DNA of 39,182 bases from a bacterium (GTDB taxonomy: Bacteria > Bacillota > Clostridia > Lachnospirales > Lachnospiraceae). Position 1 is the stretch's first letter. Each line of letters starts with the position of its first letter. The translations under genes and the position numbers were made by a program. The notes beneath the pieces are model-generated. The model saw only the letters and a list, made by a program, of their open reading frames with translations. It made no database searches and was not told the origin of the DNA. This document shows positions 1 through 20,384 of this stretch, piece by piece. Where the stretch lies: positions 1 to 39,182 of the forward strand of contig JAMPCE010000020.1 in assembly GCA_023666335.1 (NCBI GenBank), in the 5' to 3' direction.

Positions 1-2
1 GC

Positions 3-65
3 CGTTATCGGCGCGGGGATTTTCTGCGTTTAGCGGAAGATCATAAAGAGAGGAGTGACTTATAG
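3..65 (+). CDS. Possible C-terminal tail of an unidentified gene (partial)
   Basis: One frame is open from the window edge to a TAG at 63-65, five bases before a strong terminator hairpin, which is where a gene end is expected. The short tail is charged and ends in Asp-Leu. Another frame also stays open to a TAG at 31-33, so the reading frame is uncertain. No family can be recognised from so short a piece. Confidence 0.25.
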   Translation, partial: RYRRGDFLRLAEDHKERSDL

Positions 66-69
66 TGGT

Positions 70-97
70 AAGAGCAGAGAAATCTGCTCTTCTTTTA
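70..97 (+). terminator. Rho-independent terminator
   Basis: A perfect 9-bp stem (AAGAGCAGA / TCTGCTCTT) closes a GAAA tetraloop and is followed by CTTTTAATTT. It would end transcription from a gene left of the window and insulate the restriction-modification pseudogene that follows. Confidence 0.85.
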
Positions 98-242
98 ATT
101 TAACAATACACGAGAAAATTGTTTTAAATACAAATTATACTGTCTTTTAGGATAATTTGTGTTATCATATTATAGAAAATATGTAAGTATATAATGACCA
201 AAGAGCATGGAGTTTGCGTTAAGTATATTTGGAGGTAGTATT

Positions 243-3031
243 ATGGCTGAAGCGGAACAGAGAGCAGCAGCTACAAAATTTTATAATGATTGGCATGGCA
301 TTGGCGATGAAAAAAGTGATTGCCAACGATTCTAGATTGAATTTTGTGGCAATGTACTAGGAATTGAGAATGTGACGCAAAAGTTAGTCTTTGAAAAGAG
401 AGTAATCATAGATGGTCAAACTAAATTTATTGATGTTTACATACCAGAAACCAGAGTGCTGATTGAACAAAAGAGTATTGATAAAAATTTGAACAAGAAA
501 ACGCAACAGTCTGATGGTTCTATGCGTACACCTTTTGAGCAGGGACGAAATTATGCACAATGGATGATTCCCAACGAAACACCATTATGGATAGTTGCCT
601 GCAATTTTAGAACTTTCGAAATACATGATATGAATAAGCCTAATGAAGCGCCAATTGTTATTATGTTGGAGGAAGTAAGAAATAAACTACCGCTGTTTGA
701 TTTTATGTTCAAAAAAGAGGTCAAAGAGTTATCTCATGAAATGGAGATATCCGTAGAGGCGGGTAAAATTGTTGGAATATTGTATGACAAGCTGATAGAG
801 CAATATAAAGAGCCGGATGAAGCATCATTTAAAAGTTTAAATGCACTTTGTGTAAGGCTTGTATTTTGTTTATACGCTGAGGATGCAGGGGTTTTTGGTT
901 CACATATGATGTTCCATGACTATCTCAAAGATATACCTGTAAATGGCTTTCGGAAGGCACTAGTGGAGTTGTTTAAGATACTTGATACCAAAATAGAAAA
1001 TAGGGACAAATATTTAGCTGAAGATAATCCTAAACTTGCCGCATTTCCGTATGTGAATGGTGGATTATTTGCTGACGAAAATATTGAAATACCGCCTTTT
1101 ACCGAAGAAATCAAGGAATTGTTGCTTTCAAAGGCAAGCGAAAATTTTAATTGGTCTGATATTAGTCCCACTATTTTTGGTGCAGTTTTTGAAAGTACAT
1201 TAAATCCGGAAACAAGAAGAAGTGGTGGTATGCACTATACTTCTATTGAGAATATTCATAAAGTAATTGATCCACTGTTTATGTATGAACTGAGAGCAGA
1301 ACTAAATGAAATAAAGCAGATTGCAGTAGAGCGTACAAAAAAATCAAAGTTAAGTGCATTTCAAAGAAAGCTTGCACAGTTAAAGTTTCTTGATCCGGCG
1401 TGCGGTTCCGGTAATTTTCTTACAGAAACATATATTTCTTTGAGAAGACTGGAAAATGAGATTTTAGATGAATTACAAAATGGGCAGATTGTATTAGGAG
1501 AAGCAATTGATCCGATTCAAGTATCTATTAGTCAGTTTTATGGGATTGAAATAAATGATTTTGCTGTTACAGTGGCAAAAACTGCCCTTTGGATAGCAGA
1601 GAGTCAGATGATGAAGGAAACAGAGGATATAGTACATGTGAACTTAAATTTCCTTCCGCTAAAGTCATATGTTAATATCATTGAAGGTAATGCTTTGGCG
1701 CTTGAGTGGGAAAGGGTTGCACCAAAACATGAATTGAATTTTATTATGGGTAATCCCCCGTTTGTGGGGTATTCCTTGCAGAGCAAAGTCCAAAAAGAGG
1801 ACATTCTTTCCATCTATGTGGATGAGAATGGTAAACCATATAAAACGGCGGGCAAAATCGACTATGTGGCCGGGTGGTATTTCAAGGCCGCGCAGTTTAT
1901 GCAGGGGACAAGTGTTCGTACCGCATTTGTGTCCACCAACTCCATCACTCAAGGGGAGCAAGTAGCTGGCGCATGGAAACCTTTGTATGACCGCTTCAAT
2001 ATTCATATTGACTTTGCTTACCGGACTTTCCGTTGGGATAGTGAAGCCAGTTTGAAAGCTCATGTCCATTGTGTAATCATCGGATTTAGTTCTGCCTACA
2101 ACTTGAAAGAAAAACGGATTTACACAGCTGACAAATTCCATACAGCAGAAAATATTAACGCATATCTGCTTGATGCCCCGATGTTTTTATTGACAGTCGC
2201 TCTACTGCCCTTTGTGATATTCCTCAAATGGTGTACGGAAATAAGCCTACTGATGGTGGCTTTTTGTTCCTTACTAGTGAGGAGTGTGATGAAATTTTGT
2301 TAAAAGAGCCTGATGTGGCAAAATTTATTAGACAGATATATGGCGCAACTGAGTATATCAATAATAAAGCCCGCTACTGTTTATGGCTTGTCGGTGCTTC
2401 TCCTGCTGAATTGAGAAAGTCTGCCTTTATCATGAATCGTGTAGAAAAGGTCAAACAGTTTCGATTGAGCAGTACAAAGGGTGCAACGCAGAAAAGTGCA
2501 GATACACCAACTCTGTTTCAGGAGATTCGGCACTCTGATAGTGAGTATATTATCATTCCACGCCATTCGTCCGAAACACGCCGATACATTCCCTTTGGAT
2601 TTGTTTCCCCTCAAATCGTGGTCAATGATGCGGTGCAAATTATTCCAGGTGCAGAAATTTATCACTTTGGTATTCTGATGTCAAATGTGCATATGGCTTG
2701 GACGAGAGCCGTTTGTGGGCGTATCAAAAATGACTATCGCTATTCTAAGGATGTTGTTTATAACAACTTTCCTTGGTCCACGCCCACAGACGAGCAGAAG
2801 ACCAAAATCGAGCAGACTGCCCAAGCCATTTTGGATGCCCGCGCACTCTATCCCGATTGTAGCCTTGCGGATCTATATGATGAAATGCTTATGCCGCAAG
2901 AATTGCGAAAAGCTCATTTACAAAATGATAAAGCAGTTATGCAGGCATACGGTTTTTCAATAAAGGATACTACGGAGGAAAGATGCGTGGCAGAACTCAT
3001 GAAAATGTATCAGGAACTATGTTCCGGTTAG
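243..3031 (+). pseudogene. MmeI-like type IIL restriction-modification enzyme, broken by an amber codon and a frameshift
   Basis: Read through, this is about 929 codons, close to the ~920 residues of MmeI-like single-chain enzymes that join a nuclease, an N6-adenine methyltransferase and a target-recognition region. The start at 243 has GGAGG at 231-235. A D-x10-E-x-K pattern (codons 64, 75, 77) fits a PD-(D/E)xK nuclease. Methyltransferase motif I (DPACGSGNF) starts at codon 384 and motif IV (NPPF) at codon 504. Codon 31 is TAG (333-335) where the family usually has tryptophan, as from TGG to TAG. Near 2181 one base is missing: the expected frame continues as VFIDSRSTALCDIPQMVYGN from 2183 and runs to the stop at 3031. 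A GTG at 372 could restart translation but would remove the conserved N-terminus, and the frameshift would still drop about 280 C-terminal residues. It is probably inactive unless the lesions are sequencing errors. Confidence 0.88.
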
Positions 3032-3078
3032 CGTGGCATAGTAATAAAGAATATTAAATTGAAAGGTGTAAAGGTAAT

Positions 3079-3810
3079 ATGTTGAAAGATGTATTTGGTG
3101 AATCAGAATTTGATATTCAGTATCAAGAGATAATGGAAAATTTTTATAGAGACATTATTGGAAACGATAATGAATTAAATGAATTCTTTAAAAGAGTTTT
3201 TGAGCATGATGAAACAGATAAAACTCCGAGGCGGATTATGAATCATATTCAGCAATTAGTATCATTGGCAGATGATATTGATACAATACGTCCCAAAAGA
3301 GATCCTCTTAGAATTTTCTTTTTGAGAACATGTAATGAAGCTGTTTATAGGTTATATAATGAGGGCGCAGCAACAATGAGTGAAAAATCAATAGGTAATT
3401 TCTTTAAAGAGTATTTGCCAGAAGAAGGACAAAATTATATATTAGAAAATTTTAAATTTACAGAGGTAGATTACCATGCACATGCTGACTTTCAATCAGG
3501 ACAGTACATTGATAATAAGGAAGGATATTCACTGACAATCGCAGATTTTGCATTACTTTTCTTTAAAACAAGAGGTATGGTTACGCATGAAGGAGACTAT
3601 TGGTCGCTCCAATATTTTTCTAGAAGTAATGATGATACAATTTGGTGTACCCATATTGAAACTGATGAAAAAATACTGACGTGTGTTGAAAGGGAAAAAA
3701 ATAAGAAATATACATATTATTTTGAAACAACTATGAATTATGAGCAGTTCAGAAAATATTTTGTTCTTGGATGTCTTAGGGTGTTGGATGAATATATTTC
3801 CTTGTTGTGA
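3079..3810 (+). CDS. Hypothetical protein with a HEPN-like R-x4-H motif
   Basis: This 243-residue protein is not a family I can name. It looks mostly alpha-helical and acidic, with no signal peptide or membrane segment. Residues 165-170 read R-G-M-V-T-H, followed by EGDYW. This matches the R-x(4-6)-H active-site pattern of HEPN ribonuclease domains, where the His is often followed by a small or acidic residue. HEPN proteins are common in restriction and abortive-infection loci, and this gene starts 47 bases after the restriction-modification pseudogene. The start has AAAGG-like pairing a few bases upstream. The HEPN assignment rests on this motif and the helical character, so it is inference. 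It could also be an unrelated helical protein. Confidence 0.75.
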   Translation: MLKDVFGESEFDIQYQEIMENFYRDIIGNDNELNEFFKRVFEHDETDKTPRRIMNHIQQLVSLADDIDTIRPKRDPLRIFFLRTCNEAVYRLYNEGAATMSEKSIGNFFKEYLPEEGQNYILENFKFTEVDYHAHADFQSGQYIDNKEGYSLTIADFALLFFKTRGMVTHEGDYWSLQYFSRSNDDTIWCTHIETDEKILTCVEREKNKKYTYYFETTMNYEQFRKYFVLGCLRVLDEYISLL

Positions 3811-3880
3811 TGCACAGAGATATTAAGGTGGAATGGTTATAGATATGTAGGTATTTTAGAGAGTTAGTTTGGAGGAATCT

Positions 3881-4903
3881 ATGGATATAGAAAAGATGGG
3901 TGGAAGTGTTGTATATGCAAAATATATAGCTCTCACATCAAAAGATTATACATTAGCACCCCTTAAAAATAAATATAAATCAGCACTTGATTACTATGCG
4001 ATAGATGGAGCAGGAAATTGGGGAAATGAACTTTTTCACTATTGTTCCATAAATACACTGAAGAGCATTACACAGAATATGCAGTTACGATTTACAGATG
4101 TTCAGAGTTTAAAAGATACAACAGAATTTGTGAATGCAATTCATCTATTAAAACTGGTGATAGAAGAACAAGAAAATTTTATGGATGAGAAATTATATAA
4201 TATTTTAAATGACGGCGAAATATTTACAAAATTGGAAGATTATTCTCAACGATATCCGTTTTATTCGCCTATAAATAATAAAAGAGATATAGATGGAATA
4301 AAGCCAATTTGCAAAGTATATACATGCTCTTTAGGGCTACATGGCGATTTACCTAATATGTGGAATGAATATGCGAAAGGTGGCGGAGTATCTATTGGTT
4401 TTAAAGAGTTGGAACGATGTATGAAGGCAGGAGAACAAGTAAAGATAATATTTGGAAAGGTATGGTATCAAGAAGATGATAAAAAGCAATGCATAAATGC
4501 ACTTCTGAAAGATGTTTGTGAGATTTTTTCTTTGATTCCAGATGAGGGGTGTAGAAAGGATATGATACAAACTATTTTGGTTAGTGCAATGAATCATATG
4601 CGAATTTTTATGAAGGATGAAATTTACTCACCGGAAGATGAGTATAGAGCAGTATTGATAGTTCCTGAAGAGATTATTAGGAGCAATCAATTACCAGAAA
4701 AATTTGATAATGGAGATTTTGTTAAGGAAAATAGAACGATTCCTTATATTGATGTACCATTTACTTCGGAAAGTATTAGTCATATTATAGTGGGTTCAGG
4801 AATAAAAGAGGGATTTTCGCGAGTAAAAATAGATATAGAAGACTGGCTTTTGAAACAGAATTTAAGCAATATAAATATTTATGAGTCTAATTTATATCTA
4901 TGA
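3881..4903 (+). CDS. DUF2971 family protein
   Basis: The 340-residue protein has the DUF2971 layout. An N-terminal block (HYCSINTLKSI ... LRFTDVQSLKDTTEF) corresponds to the family's HY-(T/C)S ... LR(L/F)T ... SLND-(P/T)-(F/E) signature, and a central block (VYTCSLG ... MWNEYAKGGGVSIGF) matches its C-(F/S)-S ... (L/M)W-x-x-Y-(A/G) ... G-(V/I)-x-I-G-F signature. The biochemical role of the family is not settled; members often lie in genomic islands and near defence genes. I chose the ATG at 3881 because GGAGG (3871-3875) sits five bases upstream. An in-frame TTG at 3869 would overlap that ribosome-binding site. No membrane segments are seen. It is the third gene after the broken restriction-modification gene and may share its transcript. 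Confidence 0.85.
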   Translation: MDIEKMGGSVVYAKYIALTSKDYTLAPLKNKYKSALDYYAIDGAGNWGNELFHYCSINTLKSITQNMQLRFTDVQSLKDTTEFVNAIHLLKLVIEEQENFMDEKLYNILNDGEIFTKLEDYSQRYPFYSPINNKRDIDGIKPICKVYTCSLGLHGDLPNMWNEYAKGGGVSIGFKELERCMKAGEQVKIIFGKVWYQEDDKKQCINALLKDVCEIFSLIPDEGCRKDMIQTILVSAMNHMRIFMKDEIYSPEDEYRAVLIVPEEIIRSNQLPEKFDNGDFVKENRTIPYIDVPFTSESISHIIVGSGIKEGFSRVKIDIEDWLLKQNLSNINIYESNLYL

Positions 4904-4944
4904 GAAAAAGGGCTAAATAATAGAAATTGAATGAAGACGTTTGA

Positions 4945-5067
4945 AAAAGAGGAGACAAAAGTGAAAGAAAAGGTATCCCCTATGTTGGTGTTATCAGGGA
5001 TAAAGAAAAATATTGGATGATTGAATGTCCGCATTTATGTAAAAAGTGTATATCATCAAGTAATTAA
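4945..5067 (+). pseudogene. Possible gene remnant in a 258-base spacer
   Basis: The spacer between the DUF2971 and DUF3800 genes has one frame open from 4945 to a TAA at 5065-5067, with protein-like composition (for example YVGVIRDKEKYWMIECPHLC) but no start codon and no ribosome-binding site. A separate short frame from the ATG at 4931 is closed after 29 codons. It looks like a decayed gene end, but it is too short to identify or to be sure of. Confidence 0.2.
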
Positions 5068-5111
5068 TTGTTGAGAAAACAGTACATATAAAATATGTAA
5101 TATATTATCTG

Positions 5112-5141
5112 TTGGAAACATTATAAGTCATAAAGTATAGT
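5112..5141 (+). promoter_or_regulatory. Putative sigma-A promoter for the DUF3800 gene
   Basis: TTGGAA (5112-5117) and TATAGT (5136-5141) are separated by 18 bases, just upstream of the GCGAGG ribosome-binding region and the ATG at 5162. The region is AT-rich, so chance matches are fairly likely. Confidence 0.4.
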
Positions 5142-5161
5142 AATGAAAGCGAGGTAGAAAA

Positions 5162-5875
5162 ATGATAAATATATATTGTGATGAAAGTTGTCACTTGCAG
5201 TATGATGATTCAGAAATCATGCTTCTTGGTAGTATTGCATGCGATAAAAAGAATGTAAAGCGAATATCACGAGAAATAAGAAAAATGAAAAAGGATTATG
5301 GCTTTAATTCTAATTTTGAAGTTAAATGGACTAAAATATCCCCAGGAAAAGTAGATTTTTATTTAGGATTATTAGATTTTTTTGTTAAAGAGGAAATTGA
5401 TTTTAGGTGTATTATTGCTAGAGGTAAAAAGCAGTTGGATAATGATGCCTTTAATCAAACATATGATGATTGGTATTATAAGATGTATTATTTACTTCTA
5501 AGAGAAGTTTTAGATCCAATGAAAGAGTATTCAGTTTATATTGATATAAAAGATACAAATGGGGGTAAAAAGGCAAAAAAACTTAAGGAAATTTTAAATA
5601 ATTTTCTATTTAGTTTTCAACAGACTTGCCTGCAAAATTTGCAAATTGTAAAATCAGATGAGATAGAATTACTTCAGCTATGTGATTTGTTGGTTGGATG
5701 TGTTGGTTATAAGAATCGCTTTTTAAATTCGTCAGTGGAAGCAGAACAAACATTGTCTACAGCAAAAATTCAAATGTGTCAGCATTTAGAAAAACTGATA
5801 AAAAAACCGTTAACTGTTACAACTTTAAAACATGAAACAAAATTTAATATTTTTATATGGGAGCCAAGAAAATAA
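5162..5875 (+). CDS. DUF3800 domain protein
   Basis: The 237-residue protein carries the DUF3800 hallmarks: an N-terminal Y-C-D-E-S strand (residues 5-9, with the conserved acidic D7/E8), a central EVKWTKISPGKVDFYLGLLD block, the DWYYKMYYLLL helix and a late LLQLCDLLVGCVGY segment with another conserved aspartate. From memory, Pfam places this family in the RNase H-like clan, which makes the acidic residues candidate metal ligands; no activity is firmly established. Its stop overlaps the next gene by 19 bases, so the two are probably translated together. DUF3800 genes are frequent on prophages and islands. The 5' promoter is plausible but not strong. Confidence 0.88.
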   Translation: MINIYCDESCHLQYDDSEIMLLGSIACDKKNVKRISREIRKMKKDYGFNSNFEVKWTKISPGKVDFYLGLLDFFVKEEIDFRCIIARGKKQLDNDAFNQTYDDWYYKMYYLLLREVLDPMKEYSVYIDIKDTNGGKKAKKLKEILNNFLFSFQQTCLQNLQIVKSDEIELLQLCDLLVGCVGYKNRFLNSSVEAEQTLSTAKIQMCQHLEKLIKKPLTVTTLKHETKFNIFIWEPRK

Positions 5876-6402
5876 TTATGGATGAAAATGATTGTAAGTT
5901 ACAGAAAGAGAATTCGCTTAGAGTTTGCAATGATTTTGGAGAGTATGCTCAGTATGAAGAAAAATTATATGAAATCTTTCTTTGTTTATATGAGCATAAT
6001 TCCTTAGTATATGCAGGAAAAAATGTTTGTATGAAACATTATCCGCCTGATTATGGGGAAAAAACAGGATTTTATCATATGATATGCGAAGACTATCAAC
6101 ATACAAAAAATGAAGAGGATCGAAAACCAAATATTAGGCGTTGTGAGCGTATAGAGTGGGCAAAAGAGCTTATAGAAGGATGCCCGCATCTATGCGATAA
6201 AATAATGATTTGGGAAAATGAAAGACATGGAAAAAGAAATATTTTACTTTTTTGTCCAGATTTAGATTATTTGGTGGTGCTAGGAAAAAGAAAGGATTAT
6301 TTTCTATTAACGACAGCATATCCAGTGGATTATCCAAATAGGAGAAATGACCTAATTAGTGAGTACAATGCTTACATAAGCAAACAACGCACCATGGACT
6401 AG
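5857..6402 (+). CDS. Unrecognised protein, partner of the DUF3800 gene
   Basis: This 181-residue soluble protein overlaps the DUF3800 gene by 19 bases if the ATG at 5857 is used. A second in-frame ATG at 5878 lies two bases after the DUF3800 stop and is also possible. Neither has a good ribosome-binding site, which fits translational coupling. Features seen are several Cys and His residues in the middle (for example CEDYQHT, CPHLCDK), a basic run RRCERIEWAK, and a C-terminal half of alternating strands (ILLFCPDLDYLVVLGKR, DYFLLTTAYPVDYP) ending in R-x5-L-x-x-EY-x-x-Y. That end is loosely like small RNase toxins of the RelE/BECR type, but the likeness is weak and I assign no function. The stop codon lies in the middle of a 30-base palindrome. 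Confidence 0.75.
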   Translation: MGAKKIIMDENDCKLQKENSLRVCNDFGEYAQYEEKLYEIFLCLYEHNSLVYAGKNVCMKHYPPDYGEKTGFYHMICEDYQHTKNEEDRKPNIRRCERIEWAKELIEGCPHLCDKIMIWENERHGKRNILLFCPDLDYLVVLGKRKDYFLLTTAYPVDYPNRRNDLISEYNAYISKQRTMD

Positions 6403-6415
6403 TCCATAGTGCGTT
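6386..6415. terminator. 30-base near-perfect palindrome at the end of the island operon
   Basis: Arms AACGCAC and ATGGACT pair with AGTCCAT and GTGCGTT around a single C/A mismatch, with almost no loop. The TAG of the upstream gene sits at its centre (6400-6402). It probably forms a hairpin at the 3' end of the transcript. It has no clear U-tract, so it may be an mRNA-stabilising or bidirectional element, or a protein-binding site, rather than a classical terminator. Confidence 0.45.
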
Positions 6416-6549
6416 ATCGAATGCTCCTTCTACTCATGGCAGATGAGCTAAAATACCTATGCTTCTTTCTGAATATATTATATGCTATATTTCGAAGAAT
6501 ATCAATAATTTTTTCTATTTAATATGAAAATATATTGATAAAGGTTCAT

Positions 6550-6570
6550 GGCTACAAAACGGCTACAAAA
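6550..6570 (+). repeat. Direct repeat near the island end (possible recombinase arm sites)
   Basis: GGCTACAAAA occurs twice in tandem (6550-6559 and 6561-6570) separated by one base, about 100 bases inside the presumed junction with tuf. Short direct repeats in this position are typical of arm-type binding sites for tyrosine recombinases. The rest of 6416-6660 is AT-rich and contains no gene that I can support. Confidence 0.4.
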
Positions 6571-6660
6571 ATTTTGAAAGCACAGAGAAAATCAATATTT
6601 TAAGAAAATCTAACGACATAAAAGCCCGAAAATACGCCATTTGTCACACAAGATTCTCCC

Positions 6661-6723
6661 AACCTAATCCGTGAGGGTGGACGTACGGTAGGTTCAGGCA
6701 GGGTTGCGTCTATTATTGAATAA
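6661..6723 (+). pseudogene. tuf: 3' end of tuf (elongation factor Tu), detached fragment
   Basis: The frame reads ...IREGGRTVGSGRVASIIE and stops at TAA 6721-6723. This is the very conserved C-terminus of EF-Tu. The matching part begins around 6667. The upstream codons do not resemble EF-Tu, and the frame is closed by a TAA at 6619-6621. The remaining ~380 residues are absent from the window. Position supports identity: in Clostridia tuf normally lies upstream of the S10 operon. The fragment is followed by a strong hairpin that would be the native tuf terminator. Either an element integrated into the 3' end of tuf and left this copy behind, or a rearrangement removed the gene body. Confidence 0.88.
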
Positions 6724-6745
6724 TCAGTAAAAAGCTAGAGTTTAT

Positions 6746-6773
6746 GGGGCTTTCCGAAGTTTCGGGAAGCCCC
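6746..6773 (+). terminator. Hairpin after the tuf tail
   Basis: GGGGCTT (6746-6752) pairs with AAGCCCC (6767-6773), extended inward by GAA/TTC around a short loop, and is followed by TTATATG. It lies 23 bases after the tuf stop and 33 bases before the 3' end of the convergent ABC gene, so it may work in both directions. Confidence 0.65.
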
Positions 6774-6805
6774 TTATATGTTACAGGATCTACGGTGCTT
6801 TGCCA

Positions 6806-8596
6806 TCAGTTATAATACTGCGCCTGCGCAGCAAACATTTCCGCATAAATACCGCCGCTTACGCCCACCAGCTCATCGTGCGTACCGTATTCCCTGATCC
6901 GCCCTTCGGAGAAGACGGCGATCCGGTCGCAGAATTTGCAGCTGGAAAGGCGGTGAGAAATGTAGACTGCTGTTTTTTTGCCTACCAGGCTGTCAAACTG
7001 CCGATAGATGTCATATTCCGCCACGGGATCCAAAGCGGCTGTAGGCTCGTCCAGAATGACGATCGGGGATTTTTTAAAAAGCGCTCTGGCGATAGCGATT
7101 TTCTGCTGTTCGCCGCCGGAGGGTTCTATGCCGTCTTCGTCAAAGAATTTGAACAGCATGGTATCCGTTCCCTTTTCCAGCGAATCCGTTTTTTCTTTCA
7201 GCCCGGTCTGTTCTATGAGCGTATCCAGTTCCGCTTCATCGCAGGCATGGTCCAGAAGAATGTTGTCTCTGATCGAAAAGGCGAGCAGCTTAAAATCCTG
7301 GAATACCGGAGAGAACAGCGCCATGTATTCGTCGTAGGCATAGTCCTTGATGTTGACGCCGTCCAATAAGATCTCGCCCTCTGTCGGATCGTAGAGGCGG
7401 CACAGGAGTTTGATGAAAGTGGTCTTGCCTGCGCCGTTTAATCCCACGACGGACAGATGCTCTCCGGGATGGAGCGTGAGGTTCACGCCGTCCAGCACCT
7501 TTACGTCCGTATGCGGATAGGTAAAGGAAACATTTCTAAATTCTATGGTATGCGGCTTCTCTTCCACGGGATGTTCGCCCTTTGCTATGGCGGGCGGGTA
7601 GTTCATGAATTTTACATATTCATAAGCATAGTTTGTCCGCTTTACCAGTTCCTGCACATTCAGGATCAATCCCTGCATGGAGGAGTGGAACGTGGAGCCT
7701 GCGCTCAACATCTGGGAAAAAATGCCGATCGTAATCTTCCCGGTGATGACCAGTGTGCCTAGATACAGGTAGGTGCAGAAATCCCTTACAGCATCGCAGA
7801 CTGTATTCATGGAATTCAGGGGAAGATGTTGGTCTGCCTCCCACTTCCAGTTTCCAAGAGCATCATTGGTATAGGCATTCCATTTCTCCACCATCATATC
7901 TTTGGCGTCGTAAAGGCGGATGTCCTTGCCGTAGCGGAAATCGACAAGGTGAAAGGCGAGATAGCTGAAAGCGCGGTTGGATTTGGAGAGCCTGTTAAAG
8001 GCTTCAATCTCGATCAGGTTTCCCTTGTGGTTGAGCACCGTGTTGATGACGAGCAGGAAAGCGGTTACGGCAAACAAGACAGGGGCATGGAGGAGGATCA
8101 GGGCAACCACGCCTATGATTTTTATGACGTTGGAGATAAACTGAAATACTTGCAGGGAGATGCCGTGCACACCGCCGGAATACCAGTCCATGCCGGTCCT
8201 TGCTTTCTCGATCTGATCCAGCGCCTCTTTGTCTTCGGTAAGCTGAAAGTCCAGTTCCATCACGCGCAGACTCATTTCTTCGGTAAAATAATTTTCCATT
8301 TTTTCGCTGTACTTTTCCATCACGACGTCGGTTATGGAGATCAGCAGGGAAAGAAAGGTGCCGCCCACGGCGATCGCGGCAGCGTAAGCGAAAAGTTTCC
8401 GAAGATCCCTGCCGCCCAGCAGTTCGTCCAGAATCAGGGGCGTCATCAGAATGGATACAAAGGGCTGCACGGCGCGCAGGATCGTATTAAACGCGCCGCA
8501 GAAGAAAAAGCCCTTATAGTGTTTCCATGCAATGGGCATAAAGTAAGCCAAAGTCTTTCCGACGACATTGCCTGTTTTTTCTTTCGTTTCAGCCAA
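6806..8596 (-). CDS. ABC exporter half-transporter (membrane domain plus ATPase), second gene of a pair
   Basis: The 596-residue protein has a type I exporter layout: an N-terminal domain with about six membrane segments (residues ~30-310) and a C-terminal ATPase. The ATPase has Walker A (GLNGAGKT, ~385-392), the signature SGGEQ (~493-497) and Walker B followed by the catalytic Glu (VILDEPTAALD, ~513-523). It most likely forms a heterodimer with the product of the upstream gene, which it overlaps by eight bases. The start chosen is TTG at 8596, nine bases after GGAGG. The longer in-frame ATG at 8641 lies well inside the upstream gene. The substrate cannot be told from sequence; peptides, lipids or drugs are usual for this group. 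Confidence 0.9.
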   Translation of the reverse strand: MAETKEKTGNVVGKTLAYFMPIAWKHYKGFFFCGAFNTILRAVQPFVSILMTPLILDELLGGRDLRKLFAYAAAIAVGGTFLSLLISITDVVMEKYSEKMENYFTEEMSLRVMELDFQLTEDKEALDQIEKARTGMDWYSGGVHGISLQVFQFISNVIKIIGVVALILLHAPVLFAVTAFLLVINTVLNHKGNLIEIEAFNRLSKSNRAFSYLAFHLVDFRYGKDIRLYDAKDMMVEKWNAYTNDALGNWKWEADQHLPLNSMNTVCDAVRDFCTYLYLGTLVITGKITIGIFSQMLSAGSTFHSSMQGLILNVQELVKRTNYAYEYVKFMNYPPAIAKGEHPVEEKPHTIEFRNVSFTYPHTDVKVLDGVNLTLHPGEHLSVVGLNGAGKTTFIKLLCRLYDPTEGEILLDGVNIKDYAYDEYMALFSPVFQDFKLLAFSIRDNILLDHACDEAELDTLIEQTGLKEKTDSLEKGTDTMLFKFFDEDGIEPSGGEQQKIAIARALFKKSPIVILDEPTAALDPVAEYDIYRQFDSLVGKKTAVYISHRLSSCKFCDRIAVFSEGRIREYGTHDELVGVSGGIYAEMFAAQAQYYN

Positions 8597-10454
8597 CGGA
8601 ACGCACCTCCTCGTCTTTATAATACTGCGCTTGGATCTCAAACATTTCGGCGTAAGCGCCGCCTGCCTGTAACAGTTCGTCGTGCGTGCCGTATTCTACC
8701 ATTTCGCCTGCCTGAAACATGGCGATACTGTCGCAGAAGCGTGTGGAGGAGAGGCGGTGGGAGATATAAACGGCGGATCGATCCCCAATTATCTCGTTAA
8801 AGTTCCGATACAGCTCATATTCCGCCAGCGCGTCCAGCGCGGCGGTAGGCTCGTCGAGGACAAGGACGGGAGCGTTCTTATAAAGCGCCCGCGCCAACGC
8901 CAGCTTCTGCTTCTCCCCGCCGGAGAGATCGACGCCGTCATCGTGGAGGACTTTTAATAACTGCGTGTCTATGCCTTCTGAAAGGCTGTCCAGTTTTTCC
9001 TGCATCCCTGCTTTGACAAGGCAGGCTTTGGCAAACGCTTTATCCGTGTCATCGGGGCGTTTCATGGAAACGTTTTCCGCGATGGGAAAGGCAAACAGTT
9101 CCACATTCTGAAAGACGGGAGAAAACAGGCGGTAATATTCCTCGCGCCGAAACTTCCGGATATCTGTACCGTTTAAGAGGATCGCGCCTTCCGTGACGTC
9201 ATAGAGCCGCAGCAGGAGTTTGATAAACGTGGTCTTGCCTGCGCCGTTTAATCCGACGACCGCCAGTTTTTTTCCGGCTTCGAGTGTGAGGGTGAGATGT
9301 TTTATGGCGTAATCTTCGGCGCCCTCATAGCGGAAGGAAACATCCTGAAATACAAAGGTATAGCGGTCGGCTTTCGGCACGGGGATGCAGTCTGTTTCGT
9401 CATCGGTCTCTAAGTTCATGAAAGAGCGGAAATCGTCCACCTGCATGGAACGCTCCTTAAAAGTCCCCATCGTATTTAAGAATTCTCCCAGGGCGGAGGA
9501 GAAAGTCATGGAAAGCCCGAGATAGAGCGTAAAGTTACCGATGGACATATTTTTGTCAATGACGCTGTAGATCAGGACGCCGTACACGCAGGCCTGTGTG
9601 AGCATGGAGATCCCGTGGGCAAAGATGGAATTGTAGATCCATAAATTCCTGCTGTAGAGCATCTTCTCCTGTTTTTCCAGCAGGATATCGTGATGTTTTC
9701 CGACAAGCCAGCGTTTCATAGCAAAAAGCCGGATATCCTTTGCGTAGGAAAAATCCTGCGTCAACTGCGTCATATATTCGATCTTGCGCCAAGTAGGAGC
9801 CAGCTTCTCCCACACGTTCTTTCTGTCCTTTTTTACGGTATAGCGGAAAAACAGATATTGCAGGACGGAAAGGACTGCCAAGATCAGGATGATGCGCGGA
9901 TCCAGTACCGCGACCGCCACGACCGTGGCGAGCATGAGCAGAAGCTGGACGCCGAAATCGCTGATGGAGTGCATAAGACCTTCCACGCCGCTCGTATTGT
10001 TGTTGGTAGCGACACATGCCTTTGTATGCATATCGAGGATCTTTGGCTGTTCCAGCATCTGATAGTTCATGGAAAGGCTCTTTGCCACCCGTTCCGAAAT
10101 GATGTGCATGCGCGCATTGATCATGTTGTACCAGCATCTGTTGTTGGCAATGGTATTCAAAAACAAAACGAATAGTTCGATCAGGGTCGTGACGATCACC
10201 AATCGGAGCAGCGGTCCGGTATCCTTTTCCGGAGAGGCGGCCTGCGCCTGCGCGATGTCGATGACGAATTTTCCGATAAAGCTCCACAGATACTGCGTAA
10301 GCGAATTTGTGACCATGCCGATCCCCATAAAGCATAAAAGCGCAGGGCGGTACCGTTTTATCTTTCCGAGGATGTAAAGGGAATTGCTGAGGATGCCGTA
10401 TTCTGTGTGGAGCGGGTTGTCGTCTTTCTTTTTCTTTTGTCTTGTCCCGAACAA
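8589..10454 (-). CDS. ABC exporter half-transporter, first gene of a pair
   Basis: The 621-residue protein has a membrane domain (~residues 35-330) and an ATPase with Walker A (GLNGAGKT, 401-408), an LSGGEKQK signature and Walker B (LVLDEPTAALD). Unlike many heterodimeric exporters, both partners keep a recognisable signature and catalytic glutamate. The N-terminus is strongly basic (residues 5-10). The start is TTG at 10454, eight bases after AAGGAG. Its promoter region faces that of the EAL-domain gene and contains a run of ten C on the coding strand. It is paired with the overlapping downstream ABC gene. The substrate is unknown. Confidence 0.9.
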   Translation of the reverse strand: MFGTRQKKKKDDNPLHTEYGILSNSLYILGKIKRYRPALLCFMGIGMVTNSLTQYLWSFIGKFVIDIAQAQAASPEKDTGPLLRLVIVTTLIELFVLFLNTIANNRCWYNMINARMHIISERVAKSLSMNYQMLEQPKILDMHTKACVATNNNTSGVEGLMHSISDFGVQLLLMLATVVAVAVLDPRIILILAVLSVLQYLFFRYTVKKDRKNVWEKLAPTWRKIEYMTQLTQDFSYAKDIRLFAMKRWLVGKHHDILLEKQEKMLYSRNLWIYNSIFAHGISMLTQACVYGVLIYSVIDKNMSIGNFTLYLGLSMTFSSALGEFLNTMGTFKERSMQVDDFRSFMNLETDDETDCIPVPKADRYTFVFQDVSFRYEGAEDYAIKHLTLTLEAGKKLAVVGLNGAGKTTFIKLLLRLYDVTEGAILLNGTDIRKFRREEYYRLFSPVFQNVELFAFPIAENVSMKRPDDTDKAFAKACLVKAGMQEKLDSLSEGIDTQLLKVLHDDGVDLSGGEKQKLALARALYKNAPVLVLDEPTAALDALAEYELYRNFNEIIGDRSAVYISHRLSSTRFCDSIAMFQAGEMVEYGTHDELLQAGGAYAEMFEIQAQYYKDEEVRSVG

Positions 10455-10487
10455 TGTGAGGTCTCCTTATTCATTGGGTTTACGTTT

Positions 10488-10518
10488 ATTGTAACATATT
10501 TTTCTGGGGGGGGGGCAA
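10488..10518 (-). promoter_or_regulatory. ABC exporter promoter with a homopolymeric spacer
   Basis: Read on the minus strand, TTGCCC (10518-10513) and TACAAT (10493-10488) are 19 bases apart. The spacer begins with seven C that continue the -35 element into a run of ten C (10506-10515 as G on the plus strand). The spacing is two bases over the 17-base optimum, so slippage in the run could tune the promoter. Confidence 0.5.
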
Positions 10519-10547
10519 GAAATAGGCTTTCTTTTTTTGACTTTATT

Positions 10548-10556
10548 TGGTATACT
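10548..10556 (+). promoter_or_regulatory. Putative extended -10 promoter for the EAL gene
   Basis: TGG followed by TATACT (10551-10556) forms an extended -10 element. No good -35 lies 17 bases upstream. It sits 89 bases before the chosen start codon and is divergent from the ABC promoter. Confidence 0.45.
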
Positions 10557-10644
10557 ATAAATTATCACATAAAGAACAATGAGCGGTACAGAGTTTCCGG
10601 CGGGTCTGGGAAGCAGGGCGCGGTCCGCTTACAATAGGAAAATT

Positions 10645-12573
10645 ATGGGAAAAAGTCTTAGCTATGACATAGCTGCCATTTTAATATTGACAGTCCTCCT
10701 GCTGTCGTGCGTTGTGAGGAAACTGACAAACGGGACGCCGAATCGGTTGTTTCTGCTGTTTATTTCCGTCAACTGGATCGCCGCGCTGTTTGATATCTGG
10801 GCGGTGTCGCTCGACAATGCGGGCAGTACGAGCAGGTTTGCTCTATATCTGGCGCATTCCGGATATCTGATCGTACATAATTTTACGGTGCCGGTGTACG
10901 TCCTGTTTTTGATCAGCCTCACGGACACCTGGCATAAGATCAGAAGAAATTTTCTGATACAGCTTATCTTATGGGTGCCTTTTCTGGCGGTCTTTGTGTC
11001 TCTTTTGGCAAATCCGTTTACAAAGAAAATGTTTCTGGTGGACGGGGGATACCAGCGTGGCGAGTGGTTTTCTCTGATCTATATGACGATCGCGGTCTAT
11101 ATCGTTTTCGGAGTCACCTATATGATCTGGTATCGGAAAGTGGTGGAATTTTCCAAGGTCTGCGCGGTCATGTCGTACATACCGATCGGGCTGGTCACGA
11201 TGCTGATCCAGATGAAGTCTCCGACGACGCTCGTGGAGATGTTCGGCGCAGCCATCAGTATGCTCCTGATCAGCGTCGGTGCGCAGAGACCGGAAAAGAT
11301 CGTGGATTCGGATACGCAGCTTATGAAGTACAGCGCTTATGCGACGGACATGAAGCGGAATTACTACAATAAAAAGAATGTGGATGTAGTCATGCTGAAT
11401 CTCGGAAATTTCTCCGCGATCAATGCCCTGATGGGGTATGATTTTGCCATGCAGGTGCTGGCGGACGTGGTTGAGCGGATCCACAGGGCGAATATGATCA
11501 CAGGCGGGAAAGCGGATCTCTATTATCTGGACAGGGGCCGTTTTCGCATGGTATTTGAAGAAAAAGACAGGGAACTGGCGAAGCAGACAGCGGATATGCT
11601 GGTGGATATCCTGATGGAGAAGCGCGATTACAATGATCTGGACGTCACATTGCAGCCTTTCGTGGTGCTGGCGCGCTGTCCGGAGGAGATCAAGGATTTC
11701 AAGATGCTGATGACGTTCGGCATGGACTTCCATGAGAAACTGAAATTTGAACCGCGTGTCATGCATGTGGAAGATGCTTTCCATAAAGGGCTGGTCGAGA
11801 TTCAGGGCAACATCGACGAGATTATCGAGGAAGCGCTTGAGTTTAAACGTTTTCAAGTCTATTATCAGCCGATTTATTCGGTGGAAAAGGGAAAATTCGT
11901 GTCGGCGGAGGCGCTGCTTCGCCTCTTTGATCCGAAGTACGGTTTTATTTCGCCGGAGATTTTGGTCACGGCGGCGGAACGCAGCGGCGCGATCCACAGG
12001 ATCGGAGACTATGTGCTGGAGGAGGTCTGCCGCTTTATTTCCGAGGGCGAGTTCCATTCGCTGGGGTTGGAGTACATCGAGGTCAATCTCTCGGTGGCAC
12101 AGTGTATGCGGGTCAATCTGGCGGATAAGATACTCGGTATCATGGCGAAACACCGCGTTTCCGCAGAATATATCAATCTGGAGATCACGGAGACGGCGGC
12201 AAGCCACACGCAGGAGGTCATGGCGGAAAATCTGCAAAAGCTGAATCGGGCGGGTATTTCTCTGTCGCTGGATGATTACGGAACGGGCTATTCCAATATC
12301 AAGCGCGTGATCCAGCTTCCGCTTAAGATCATCAAGCTGGATAAGACCTTTGTGGACGAACAGGAAAATCCCAAGATGCGGGTCGTGCTCAAAAATACGG
12401 TGGCGATGCTCAAAGACATGAATATGGAGATCGTGGTGGAGGGAATCGAAACGCAGGAGATGCTGGACTTTTTTGCGGAGCTGCAATGTGATTTCATTCA
12501 GGGATATTTCTTCTCGAAACCGATCCCGAAGCCGGAATTTATCAATTTTATCAAAGAGCGGGCTGCGGAATAA
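10645..12573 (+). CDS. Membrane EAL-domain protein with degenerate GGDEF, probable c-di-GMP phosphodiesterase
   Basis: The N-terminal ~215 residues hold about six or seven hydrophobic segments, likely a membrane sensor. The next ~150 residues resemble a GGDEF fold that has lost its active site: where GG(D/E)EF is expected the chain reads RGRF, so it should not make c-di-GMP. The C-terminal EAL domain (~390-640) keeps the catalytic set: EALLRL (~422), N in EVNLS (~481), E in LEITET, DD in LDDYGTG (~543-544), K in IKLDK (~565), E in VVEGIE and Q in IQGYFF. Hydrolysis of c-di-GMP to pGpG is therefore likely, and the degenerate GGDEF may be regulatory. In a flagellated organism this would favour motility. 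The start at 10645 follows AGGA (10636-10639); a longer frame from 10579 has weaker support. Confidence 0.9.
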   Translation: MGKSLSYDIAAILILTVLLLSCVVRKLTNGTPNRLFLLFISVNWIAALFDIWAVSLDNAGSTSRFALYLAHSGYLIVHNFTVPVYVLFLISLTDTWHKIRRNFLIQLILWVPFLAVFVSLLANPFTKKMFLVDGGYQRGEWFSLIYMTIAVYIVFGVTYMIWYRKVVEFSKVCAVMSYIPIGLVTMLIQMKSPTTLVEMFGAAISMLLISVGAQRPEKIVDSDTQLMKYSAYATDMKRNYYNKKNVDVVMLNLGNFSAINALMGYDFAMQVLADVVERIHRANMITGGKADLYYLDRGRFRMVFEEKDRELAKQTADMLVDILMEKRDYNDLDVTLQPFVVLARCPEEIKDFKMLMTFGMDFHEKLKFEPRVMHVEDAFHKGLVEIQGNIDEIIEEALEFKRFQVYYQPIYSVEKGKFVSAEALLRLFDPKYGFISPEILVTAAERSGAIHRIGDYVLEEVCRFISEGEFHSLGLEYIEVNLSVAQCMRVNLADKILGIMAKHRVSAEYINLEITETAASHTQEVMAENLQKLNRAGISLSLDDYGTGYSNIKRVIQLPLKIIKLDKTFVDEQENPKMRVVLKNTVAMLKDMNMEIVVEGIETQEMLDFFAELQCDFIQGYFFSKPIPKPEFINFIKERAAE

Positions 12574-12582
12574 AACAATTCG

Positions 12583-12611
12583 TTGCATTTTTCGGGACAT
12601 GAGAGTAAGAT
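12583..12611 (+). promoter_or_regulatory. Promoter of the nucleoside transporter operon
   Basis: TTGCAT (12583-12588) and TAAGAT (12606-12611) are separated by exactly 17 bases, about 45 bases before the ATG of the lipoprotein gene. No purine riboswitch or obvious operator palindrome is visible in the short leader. Confidence 0.6.
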
Positions 12612-12656
12612 AGATGCGTAGTTTGGAAATATTGTCTTTACAGAACGGAGGAGATT

Positions 12657-13847
12657 ATGAAAAAGAGAGTAATTGCAATGATGCTTTCTGCGGCTATGGC
12701 GGTTTCTTTGGCAGCCTGCGGCGGTGGTGACACGACAGCGCCTGCAAGCGATACGGCGGCGGAGAGCGCAGATGAAGAAGCGTCTGCGGCAGCGGAGGAT
12801 GCCGGAAGCGATGCGGCGGCTGGACTTAAGATCGCGATCGTATCCAGTCCTTCCGGTGTGGACGACGGTTCCTTTAATCAGGATAATTATAACGGGATCC
12901 TTTCCTTTATCGAGAGTCATCCCGACAGCACGGTGACGCCCGTGCAGGAGACGACGGGCGATGTGGCGGCGGCAGTACAGGCAGTTGCCGATATCGTGGC
13001 GGATTATGATGTGATCGTTTGCTGCGGCTTCCAGTTTGCGGGCATCACGACCATCGCGCAGGAAAATCCGGATGTAAAGTTCATTCTGGTGGATTCGTAC
13101 CCCTCGGATGCGGACGGCAATGATGCGGAGGTGGACAATATCTATGCGATGTTGTTCGCGGAACAGGAGTCCGGCTTCTTTGCGGGTATGGCGGCGGCTC
13201 TGGAGACAAAGTCGAATAAGGTGTCCGTGGTAAACGGGATCGCTTACCCTTCTAATGTAAACTATCAGTACGGTTTTGAATGCGGCGTGAAATACATCAA
13301 TGAGACTGAGGGGAAATCCGTAGAGATCGTGGAACTTCCCTCCTATGCGGGAACGGATGTGACGGGCGCCGATGTGGGCGGCAATTACGTCGGCTCTTTC
13401 GCGGACGAGGCGACCGGTAAGGTGATCGGCAACGCGCTGATCGCAGAGGGCGTGGATATCATCTTTGTGGCGGCAGGCGCATCCGGCAACGGCGTTCTTA
13501 CGGCGGTGAAAGAGGCTTCCGGCGTTTACTTTATCGGCTGCGACGTAGATCAGTATGACGACGGCGCAAACGGCGATGCGAACGTGGTATTGACTTCTGC
13601 GGTCAAAGTAATGCACCTGAATGTAGAGCGTGCGCTGAATACAGTAGCGGACGGCAGCTTCAAGGGCGGTAACGTAACGTTGCAGGCAGATACGGATTCC
13701 ACCGGTTACATCAACGCGGACGGCAGATGCCAGTTATCCGCGGATTCCATTTCCAAGATCGACGCGGCTTACGAGGCGGTCAAGGGCGGCACGATCGTGC
13801 CGGCGGCGAACTTTAACGGGGTTACGCCGGAGACCTTTACATGGTAA
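12657..13847 (+). CDS. BMP-family nucleoside-binding lipoprotein of an ABC importer
   Basis: The protein starts with a basic and hydrophobic signal followed by the lipobox LAAC (lipidated Cys21) and a low-complexity Ala/Glu/Asp linker. The mature part is a two-lobed periplasmic-binding fold of the BMP/PnrA type (VDDGSFNQDNYNGI, CCGFQFAG, VDSYPSD, FFAGMAAAL, GCDVDQYDDG). BMP proteins bind purine nucleosides, as in PnrA of Treponema and BmpA of Lactococcus. It is the first gene of an operon with a double ATPase and two permeases, the composition of the NupNOPQ-type nucleoside importer. A GGAGG ribosome-binding site lies just upstream. A hairpin after the gene probably keeps binding-protein mRNA more abundant than the rest. 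Confidence 0.93.
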   Translation: MKKRVIAMMLSAAMAVSLAACGGGDTTAPASDTAAESADEEASAAAEDAGSDAAAGLKIAIVSSPSGVDDGSFNQDNYNGILSFIESHPDSTVTPVQETTGDVAAAVQAVADIVADYDVIVCCGFQFAGITTIAQENPDVKFILVDSYPSDADGNDAEVDNIYAMLFAEQESGFFAGMAAALETKSNKVSVVNGIAYPSNVNYQYGFECGVKYINETEGKSVEIVELPSYAGTDVTGADVGGNYVGSFADEATGKVIGNALIAEGVDIIFVAAGASGNGVLTAVKEASGVYFIGCDVDQYDDGANGDANVVLTSAVKVMHLNVERALNTVADGSFKGGNVTLQADTDSTGYINADGRCQLSADSISKIDAAYEAVKGGTIVPAANFNGVTPETFTW

Positions 13848-13875
13848 GCGATTAAGCACTGACGTGTTCAATCCA

Positions 13876-13950
13876 GAGAATACTTCGTATTCTCCACAGA
13901 TAAATATGTTGAAGAATGAGCCGTAAGGGAAAAATCTTTGCGGCTCTTCT
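13876..13950 (+). promoter_or_regulatory. Two intercistronic hairpins (probable attenuator or mRNA stabiliser)
   Basis: The first is a perfect 8-bp stem GAGAATAC/GTATTCTC with a TTC loop (13876-13894). The second pairs GAGCCG (13918-13923) with CGGCTC (13941-13946), extends inward, and is followed by TTCTCTT. Placed between the binding-protein gene and the ATPase gene, they would protect the upstream message or reduce read-through, giving an excess of binding protein. Confidence 0.6.
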
Positions 13951-13970
13951 CTTACATGGGGAGGCTGTGT

Positions 13971-15515
13971 ATGTCTGACTACATTATCGAGATGAATCAT
14001 ATCACAAAGCGTTTTCCGGGCATTGTGGCGAACGACGACGTATCCATCCGGGTAAAGAAAGGCGAGATCTACGCCCTGCTGGGGGAGAACGGTGCGGGCA
14101 AATCCACGCTGATGAGTATGCTGTTTGGGATGTACGAGCCGGACGAGGGAGAGATCATCATTCGAGGCGAAAAGGTAAAGATCGAGTCGCCAAACCACGC
14201 AACACGGTTGAACATCGGCATGGTGCACCAGCATTTTAAGCTGGTCAGCAACTATACCATAGCGGAAAATATCGTGATGGGCATGGAGCCGATAAAGAAA
14301 GCGCTGGGAATCTTTAAGACCGTGGATATGAAAAAGGCGAATGAGGATATTCGGGCGTTGTCGGAAAAATTCGGACTGGAAGTGGATCCCACAAAGGTCA
14401 TTGAGAATATCAATGTCTCCATGCAGCAGCGGGTAGAGATCTTGAAGATGCTGTATCGGGAGGCGGAGATCCTGATCTTTGACGAGCCGACGGCGGTGCT
14501 GACGCCTCAGGAGATCGAATTTCTCTTAGAGATCATAGAGGGGCTGCGAAAGGATGGCAAGACGATCATCCTGATCACCCATAAGCTGGAGGAGATCAAA
14601 AAGATCGCGGACCGCTGTGCGATCCTCTGTCGGGGAAAGCTGGTCGATGTGCTGAATGTGAGAGAGACGGATGCAAAGGTCATGGCGAACCTGATGGTGG
14701 GACGCGAGGTGAATTTCTCCGTGGACAAGCCGGAAGCGGAGTATGGCGGAGAAGTCCTGAAAGTGGAACATCTGACAGTGCGGAATGCCGATAAATTCGA
14801 GGTGGTAAAGGATGTCAGCTTCTCGATCCGAGGCGGCGAGATCTTTGCGGTGGCGGGTGTTTCCGGCAACGGTCAGGTGGAGCTTGCGGATGCGGTCGCG
14901 GGCTTGCTGAAACCTTATAGCGGTCATATCACCTTAAACGGAAAGGATATTACGGAAACTTCGATTCGGGAGCGGAATCGGGAGGGCATTTCCTACATAC
15001 CGGAGGACCGGCAGAATGTGGGGCTGGTGATGGACTTAAGCCTGTCGGACAATCTTGCCTTGAAAACTTATTTCGAGAGCCCTTTTTCGAAAGGCTCTGT
15101 GATTCGGGGAGAAGAATTTCTGAAGTACAGCGGGGAGCTGATCGAGAAGTACGATATCCGCAGCGGACAGGGCAGCGACACCATCGTGCGCTCCATGAGC
15201 GGCGGCAACCAGCAGAAAGCGATCATTGCCAGAGAGATCGAGCTGGATTCGTCCCTGCTGATCTTTGTGCAGCCGACAAGAGGGCTGGACATCGGGGCGA
15301 TCGAGAACATCCACAAACAGATCGTGGCGGAACGCGACAAAGGCAAGGCGGTGCTTTTGATCTCGCTGGAACTGGACGAGGTGATGAATCTGGCGGATAC
15401 GATCGGCGTGATCTATAACGGAAAGATTGATAAGATTGCGGATGCGAAGACCCTGACGCCGGGTGAAGTGGGAGAATTTATGATGGGGGTAGGAGGAAAG
15501 CATGAAAAAGTTTAA
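13971..15515 (+). CDS. Nucleoside ABC importer ATPase with two nucleotide-binding domains
   Basis: The 514-residue protein has two ATPase halves in the sugar/nucleoside importer style (RbsA/NupO type). The first has Walker A GENGAGKST (~residue 38) and Walker B LIFDEPTAVLTP. The second has the usual relaxed P-loop (GVSGNGQVELAD), a good signature SGGNQQK and FVQPTRGLD. It powers uptake with the two permeases that follow. I chose ATG 13971 because GGAGG (13959-13964 region) sits about six bases upstream. The in-frame ATG at 13938 lies within the leader hairpin. The 3' end overlaps the first permease gene by 14 bases. Confidence 0.94.
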   Translation: MSDYIIEMNHITKRFPGIVANDDVSIRVKKGEIYALLGENGAGKSTLMSMLFGMYEPDEGEIIIRGEKVKIESPNHATRLNIGMVHQHFKLVSNYTIAENIVMGMEPIKKALGIFKTVDMKKANEDIRALSEKFGLEVDPTKVIENINVSMQQRVEILKMLYREAEILIFDEPTAVLTPQEIEFLLEIIEGLRKDGKTIILITHKLEEIKKIADRCAILCRGKLVDVLNVRETDAKVMANLMVGREVNFSVDKPEAEYGGEVLKVEHLTVRNADKFEVVKDVSFSIRGGEIFAVAGVSGNGQVELADAVAGLLKPYSGHITLNGKDITETSIRERNREGISYIPEDRQNVGLVMDLSLSDNLALKTYFESPFSKGSVIRGEEFLKYSGELIEKYDIRSGQGSDTIVRSMSGGNQQKAIIAREIELDSSLLIFVQPTRGLDIGAIENIHKQIVAERDKGKAVLLISLELDEVMNLADTIGVIYNGKIDKIADAKTLTPGEVGEFMMGVGGKHEKV

Positions 15516-16566: not shown

Positions 16567-16567
16567 T

Positions 16568-17527: not shown

Positions 17528-17529
17528 AG

Positions 17530-17552
17530 ATCTCTCCCATAATGGTAGAGAT
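17530..17552 (+). terminator. Hairpin at the end of the nucleoside operon
   Basis: ATCTCT-C-CCAT pairs with ATGG-T-AGAGAT around a short loop, directly after the last permease stop. There is no U-tract, so it may stabilise the 3' end rather than terminate. Confidence 0.4.
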
Positions 17553-17598
17553 TGTGAATCCGAAAGGCAATAAGGTCAGCAACGATACCTGATGTACC

Positions 17599-17626
17599 TA
17601 AATTATCCTGCATGAAATGCCGATAT
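17599..17626 (+). promoter_or_regulatory. Sigma-28 (SigD/FliA)-type motility promoter
   Basis: TAAA (17599-17602), 16 bases, then GCCGATAT (17619-17626) matches the flagellar sigma-28 consensus TAAA-N14-16-GCCGATAT closely. It lies about 75 bases before the coiled-coil gene and places that gene in the motility regulon. Confidence 0.85.
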
Positions 17627-17652
17627 AATAGTCAAAGAGAAACATAAGCGAA

Positions 17653-17672
17653 GCGGCAAACGGATTTGCCGC
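17653..17672 (+). promoter_or_regulatory. Hairpin with ACGGA loop, candidate CsrA binding site
   Basis: GCGGCAAA pairs perfectly with TTTGCCGC around CGGA, so the loop region reads ACGGAT, an A-N-GGA motif in a hairpin loop as preferred by CsrA. It ends 14 bases before the GGAGG of the next gene, which offers a second GGA. Almost the same hairpin precedes the flagellin gene at 39,083. Confidence 0.6.
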
Positions 17673-17699
17673 CTTGACAGCATCATGGAGGATATTTGT

Positions 17700-18575: not shown

Positions 18576-18645
18576 ATGAGAGGACAAGGCGGGCTTTTGC
18601 TGGAGACACAGCGGGGGCTCGTTTTGATTTGGAGAAGACAGATTT

Positions 18646-20326: not shown

Positions 20327-20344
20327 GATTTTTCCCGTCCTTGT

Positions 20345-20373
20345 AAAATAATCTGTAATGACAAGTGTGCCAA
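20345..20373 (-). promoter_or_regulatory. Putative promoter of the methyltransferase gene
   Basis: On the minus strand TTGGCA (20373-20368) and TATTTT (20350-20345) are 17 bases apart, about 20 bases before the chosen ATG. It supports the shorter start but leaves a very short leader. Confidence 0.4.
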
Positions 20374-20384
20374 AAACTGCATAT

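Follow-up and report, generated by a model that had tools for sequence, protein, structure and literature searches.

The question raised by this locus is why an AT-rich stretch of DNA runs directly into the last codons of tuf, the gene for EF-Tu, with the remainder of the gene missing. The window, that is, the whole stretch of 39,182 nucleotides analysed in this study, comes from a Lachnospiraceae genome assembled in 117 contigs. We propose, with a probability of roughly 90%, that the window contains the right attachment site (attR) of an element that a tyrosine integrase directs to the 3' end of tuf, and that this element has decayed here to a CIME-like island. The integrase would have inserted the element at an 11-base core, CGTGAGGGTGG, within the last tuf codons. 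The element would have brought its own last 17 codons and terminator, which keep tuf whole; by analogy with the relatives, the copy adjoining tuf would be that of the element, and the copy in the window the native end, pushed to the far side. The integrase would bind tandem 11-base arm repeats, which lie about 120 bases in from the right end and, in the typical case, 138 bases in from the left.

Positions 6667-6723 of the window encode the last 18 residues of EF-Tu (translation IREGGRTVGSGRVASIIE, followed by the stop codon). As read in the initial annotation, a terminator follows at the edge of the island, a hairpin at 6743-6776 on the + strand (inverted repeat with arms 88% complementary). 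Translation and alignment to the complete tuf gene of the same genome delimit a displaced 3' end of 17 codons plus stop (6670-6723, + strand). Identity of both tuf ends begins exactly at 6670, where the first 17 bases are the same and the preceding base is different. The end-to-end comparison thereby places the core at 6670-6686 (+ strand), exactly identical to the end of the complete gene and beginning with the 11 bases CGTGAGGGTGG; the exact stretch common to both ends is CGTGAGGGTGGACGTAC, and the adjacent base leftward differs. Over about 110 bases (window 6667-6775), the sequence shares 81% identity with the end of the complete tuf and its terminator. Allowing up to 3 mismatches, the 17-base core occurs once in the window, versus 0.07 occurrences expected. 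No tuf body was found in the window.

The locus itself had been taken for the native tuf position upstream of the S10 operon. In the window, rpsJ starts at 21116, 14.4 kb downstream of the tuf end fragment. In a relative assembled as a single contig (G454), rpsJ likewise comes after tuf, in the same orientation and about 22 kb past a tuf-end fragment, and a homologue (76%) of window 19445-20428 lies just before rpsJ. Among the other compared stretches the order from tuf to rpsJ is partial in G436, and elsewhere the stretch ends before rpsJ. The position of the S10 operon in the window and the order in G454 therefore support the native locus. Further along, downstream of the ribosomal protein genes, the window encodes a tyrosine recombinase of 212 amino acids with a catalytic domain only (37842-38480, - strand), homologues of which (54-57%) are located near tuf in G096 and G021.

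A complete tuf with the same last codons was predicted to lie to the left of the window. The genome possesses one full EF-Tu gene, on contig C85 (12750-13937) directly after fusA, and C85 stops 250 bases past it. The last 55 bases of C85 overlap exactly with window 1-55 (+ strand), and when up to 3 mismatches are allowed, a 39-base piece taken from it is found nowhere else in the genome. On the basis of the 55-base overlap, the plain reading is that C85 would continue into the window in the order tuf, island, second tuf end. The rest of tuf would thus lie to the left, reached through the contig overlap. The two cores are 6918 bases apart when the C85 part is counted, which gives an island of about 6.9 kb that occupies window 1-6669 in addition to the C85 part. 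Its AT-richness is confirmed, with 34.1% GC in window 1-6666 versus 52.8% in fusA-tuf and 52.2% in window 6724-20428.

The right end of the island can be assigned to a class. Its inner part (6549-6669, + strand) aligns to the right ends of elements in relatives: from 6549 to 6723-6780, the window shares 82-85% identity with GGCTAC-class right ends in G036, G022, G023 and G018. This part contains the tandem 11-base repeat GGCTACAAAA-C-GGCTACAAAA (6550-6570, + strand; copies at 6550-6559 and 6561-6570), which matches once in the window and not at all in 100 shuffles. The repeat is offset by -121 bases from the start of the core (counted from 6549), as in all six right-end matches. A search of 77 genomes of the genus with the pattern TGGCTACAAANNGGCTAC gave 14 matches in 10 genomes, and the reversed pattern gave none in the same 77 genomes. 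Each of the 14 tandem GGCTAC repeats has the same strand as a tuf-end core and starts at a distance of exactly +138 or -121 bases from it. This fixed spacing supports the earlier suggestion that the tandem repeats are recombinase arm sites, and from the sequence pattern we infer that the integrases of the relatives bind them.

Other elements bear different arm words at about the same places. After duplicates and shorter flanks were dropped, 42 distinct displaced ends remained that have 700 bases or more upstream. A period-11 repeat begins between -118 and -125 in 37 of them, versus 19 of 3276 control placements. With a looser limit of 135 bases the count is 38 of 43, the five ends without such a repeat within that limit being L216, L224, L043, L047 and L049. 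The arm word follows the integrase: GGCTAC pairs with integrases 79-100% identical to class A, and GGTGCC with relatives of class C (83-100%) where the left arm was called. In L206, L210 and L211 (80-81% to class C) the right arms are GGTGCC, and GGCTCT, GATAAC, GCTTCT and GGTACC pair with more distant integrases. The core is nearly constant. Displaced tuf-end copies in the genus start with CGTGAGGGTGG in 24 of 26 cases and with a one-base variant in 2, and the base preceding it is variable among these 26 copies. Likewise, the 11 bases are invariant in 14 loci of the GGCTAC class, with variable neighbouring positions.

At the left end of the island, on the C85 side, core and tuf end are present, and we found neither a left end of the GGCTAC class (class A) nor a period-11 repeat. 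Thus, attR is recognised on the right, and attL as such is not demonstrated. Since the two ends differ in kind, the island might be a composite of tandem elements that has kept a GGCTAC-class right end and received its left end from another element or by later rearrangement. Tandem elements of different classes at tuf in L080, G021, G064 and G332 make this a serious possibility, to which we give somewhat less than even odds, and the left end lacks an arm repeat of any class that would name its source. This reading is a variant of the decayed tuf-end element proposed above, not its opposite. Sequence at the left end also resembles DNA elsewhere. C85 14069-14170 is similar to intergenic DNA of the genus, for example in G017 before a gene that we take to be uvrB-like. 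Copies of about 100 bases of hairpin-bearing intergenic sequence (window 1-55; L012 14069-14187) are located beside other genes, with 92% identity in G017, 89% in G080 and weaker matches in a further 11 genomes of the genus. C85 downstream of tuf is similar to the outer flank in G018 and may, judging from this similarity, be undisturbed native flank.

The island contains six open reading frames of at least 100 amino acids, all on the + strand. An MmeI-like type IIG restriction gene is broken into an N-terminal and methyltransferase part (372-2303; PF20473, PF20464, PF20465; PADLOC REase_MTase_IIG) and a target-recognition and C-terminal part in another frame (2228-3031; PF20466, PF20467); read from 243, it has an in-frame stop at codon 31 in addition to the later frame change. 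It is followed by an open reading frame of 243 amino acids without a match in Pfam, PADLOC or NCBIfam (3079-3810) and a DUF2971 protein (3884-4903; PF11185, E 6.9e-6). A DUF3800 protein (5162-5875; PF12686; PDLC04353, E 3.2e-80) and its partner (5857-6402; PDLC04357, E 5.3e-43) match the candidate defence genes PDC-M04A and PDC-M04B. Provided that the contig join is right, none of the six encodes an integrase or relaxase according to Pfam, PADLOC and NCBIfam, and the same databases gave no phage structural or replication genes among them. The integrase expected beside the duplicated tuf end is thus absent from the assembled stretch between tuf and the displaced end. Its absence fits decay, or a piece missing between the contigs.

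In the latter case, the element would be intact, with its integrase in an assembly gap between C85 and the window. The contigs do break exactly at this point, and the sequence at the break is like intergenic DNA elsewhere in the genus, so that a repeat could hide a gap. However, the 55-base overlap was found just at these two contig ends, the 5 candidates scored, of 11 in the own genome, included no class C integrase match at E 1e-90, the restriction gene is broken and the left arm site is absent. We therefore consider an intact element unlikely. Decay to a CIME-like island would have left the right core and the right arm site in place, together with defence-type genes and the broken restriction gene; integrase, mobilization gene and left arm site were not found and would have been lost. 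That the fragment is instead what remains of a second tuf gene after deletion of its body, the island having arrived independently, is highly improbable: second tuf genes occur in many bacteria, but EF-Tu matches over the cut-off were obtained in 43 of the 77 genomes of the genus, one in each, and the displaced ends share their start base and arm repeats at fixed distances, which is not expected from random deletion.

The integrases of the relatives are tied to this site. A first search with the class A integrase (from G036) against named bacterial genomes gave 78 loci. At 79% identity or more, a tuf end is located upstream in 18 of 20 loci; in at least three of the 18 (L071, L080, L142) this upstream tuf end is itself displaced and the element is second in a row. 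The two exceptions are L067, with just 300 bases upstream, and L083, which is the second half of a split gene with its first half at tuf. At 51% identity or less, the pattern was seen in none of 58 loci, 15 of which have less than 6 kb upstream. In CAJTEN010000007.1, a class A integrase at tuf lies in two halves about 117 kb apart (L081 at about 44.5 kb, L083 at about 161.8 kb), as if a very large element had inserted inside the integrase gene. In seven loci the integrase is 96-98% identical, and the EF-Tu proteins of these loci are 86-92% identical to that of the own genome. An integrase conserved above EF-Tu speaks for transfer between lineages.

A second search used the class C integrase (from G013) against 392 genomes of the order, with at most 5 candidates scored per genome, and gave at least 64 matches at E 1e-90 or better in 46 genomes. 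Among the matches listed, all 22 at 51% identity or more were fetched: 18 are accompanied by tuf or a tuf end, and the 4 others have 0.3, 0.6, 0.9 and 4.1 kb of contig left upstream. In G428, a distance of 7.9 kb separates the integrase from tuf. At 46% identity or less, 18 of the 42 listed matches were fetched, in 17 stretches (three with less than 1 kb upstream), and none of the 18 is accompanied by tuf or a tuf end. Two relatives on single contigs, G454 and G332 (the latter from another family, with EF-Tu 79% identical to that of the own genome), have tuf, integrase and tuf end in a row with no contig gap.

Among viral records, IMG/VR gave one relative of the class A integrase at 43% and none of class C, and all integrase matches in plasmid records were below 60%. 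Phage records gave three short unannotated human faecal entries at 55-59%. In one of these a junction resembles attP, but a tandem junction would look the same. In L201 (MT839393.1, human faecal), positions 1-310 include the core with a tuf end; the non-tuf sequence before it has an arm repeat at -121 and an integrase gene comes after, an arrangement expected of either a circular form or a tandem junction.

Within the genus, a degenerate REGGRTVG pattern detected more than one tuf end (two to four) in 22 of 77 genomes, a single one in 34 genomes and none in the remaining 21; these counts are rough, given the strictness of the pattern and the incompleteness of many assemblies. In G013 (L043), the 9.9 kb from tuf to a further tuf end contain an HTH gene, then genes for a tyrosine integrase and a Mob_Pre protein, and finally an AbiE pair. 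In G022 and G070, stretches of 19.5 kb and 16.2 kb between tuf ends contain an integrase and a relaxase. Relaxase or mobilization domains (PF03432 in G022 and G070; PF01076 in G013 and G454) were called in these four genomes, though not in every element, and would allow excised elements to be transferred by mobilization. Intact relatives at tuf thus carry their own integrase, with att sites at the fixed site. Tandem elements behind tuf, parted by displaced ends with different arm words, are present in L046 (6568-13320), L080 (920-7976) and L208 (6863-16249). For a direct comparison of interrupted and uninterrupted sites we used G021 and G007, leaving out other rows with tandem elements or full tuf copies. 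The 1471 bases past one displaced tuf end in G021 directly follow the complete tuf in G007 (95.8% identity, joined at the core); therefore, this flank is found both next to the extra element and in its absence. A relative with an uninterrupted tuf followed by the ABC exporter genes, as the initial annotation had envisaged, was not found; the best DNA matches in the genus to window 6724-10600 reach 68-69%, so no empty site flanked on the right as in the window was obtained, and the G013 match to this stretch is on a different contig from the G013 tuf. The duplicated end, the integrases of relatives at tuf and the fixed-distance repeats together uphold site-specific integration at the tuf 3' end.

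As cargo, the tuf islands gave model matches to AbiE, type I and type II restriction, NsnA/PD-T4-2, PDC-S02 (DUF1016), an RloB-like protein and a Schlafen-type protein. Because these neighbours were picked by hand, no enrichment of defence genes is claimed.

It is tempting to speculate that the tuf end is the fixed site of a clade of tyrosine integrases in at least two families of one order, a generalisation to which we give an even chance. Core specificity would have stayed constant, and the arm repeats would have radiated into at least eight words (GGCTAC, GGTGCC, GATAAC, GGCTCT, GCTTCT, GGTTCT, GGTAAC, GGTACC) at constant distances, which could allow tandem stacking without mutual excision. 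Each integration would swap the last 17 EF-Tu codons and the terminator. If so, mobile DNA would repeatedly supply the end of an essential gene that ranks among the most highly conserved and expressed in bacteria. The clade would provide a natural attB in many gut bacteria for which engineering is difficult, the site would mark a place with restriction and other defence genes, and one core with many arm words would form a natural integrase series for testing arm recognition and element insulation. For annotation, an additional tuf end in an assembly may mark the end of an element and not a copy of the gene.

Among known systems, the integrases of the relatives are close to those of the Tn916/Tn1549 type. 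The four that were analysed possess arm-binding (PF14657), SAM-like (PF14659) and catalytic (PF00589) domains in the same order, and the sequence matches the solved 'Int protein' chains 6emy/6en0, which presumably originate from Tn1549. Tn916 also has 11-base direct arm repeats. However, Tn916 and Tn1549 insert with low specificity, whereas the elements of the relatives use one chromosomal core in tuf.

In the initial annotation tuf was not known as a common target, and this agrees with the searched literature, in the parts available, where tuf was not found as a regular integration site. TIGER/Islander, with about 1.75 million islands, 43.4% of them in coding sequences (PMC12424338), could hold the site undescribed, and in the text seen of PMC5126054 tuf appears just in a reference title. 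In E. faecium U0317, the esp island has one end downstream of tuf, away from the rpsI site that it usually occupies (PMC2858755); as described there, this is an rpsI-site island whose parts later separated, not a tuf-targeting element. The kind of element is known, and the target, the clade and the series of arm repeats at fixed distances appear undescribed in the literature searched. Elements with tyrosine integrases in the 3' ends of rpsI, rpmG, rplL, lysS, guaA and other genes are established (PMC4701971, PMC5704250). Streptococcal ICEs at rplL, rpsI, lysS, rpmG and guaA likewise use tyrosine integrases at the 3' ends of housekeeping genes, in other genes and hosts, and the available text mentions neither tuf nor 'elongation factor' (PMC4701971). 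CIMEs, as presented in the accessible part of PMC5704250, lack integration and transfer genes and have att sites in common with intact relatives, like the island in the window; they are defined by retaining attL and attR, whereas here the right end alone is recognisable. The intact relatives are best compared with IMESag-rpsI, IME_SSalJIM777_rpmG and SGI1 in trmE, which, according to the same excerpted source, also combine a tyrosine integrase, the 3' end of a conserved gene, a relaxase without full transfer apparatus and tandem stacking with decayed elements (PMC5704250). From these, the elements described in this study differ in their target, tuf, and in arm repeats that vary between classes at constant distances from one core.
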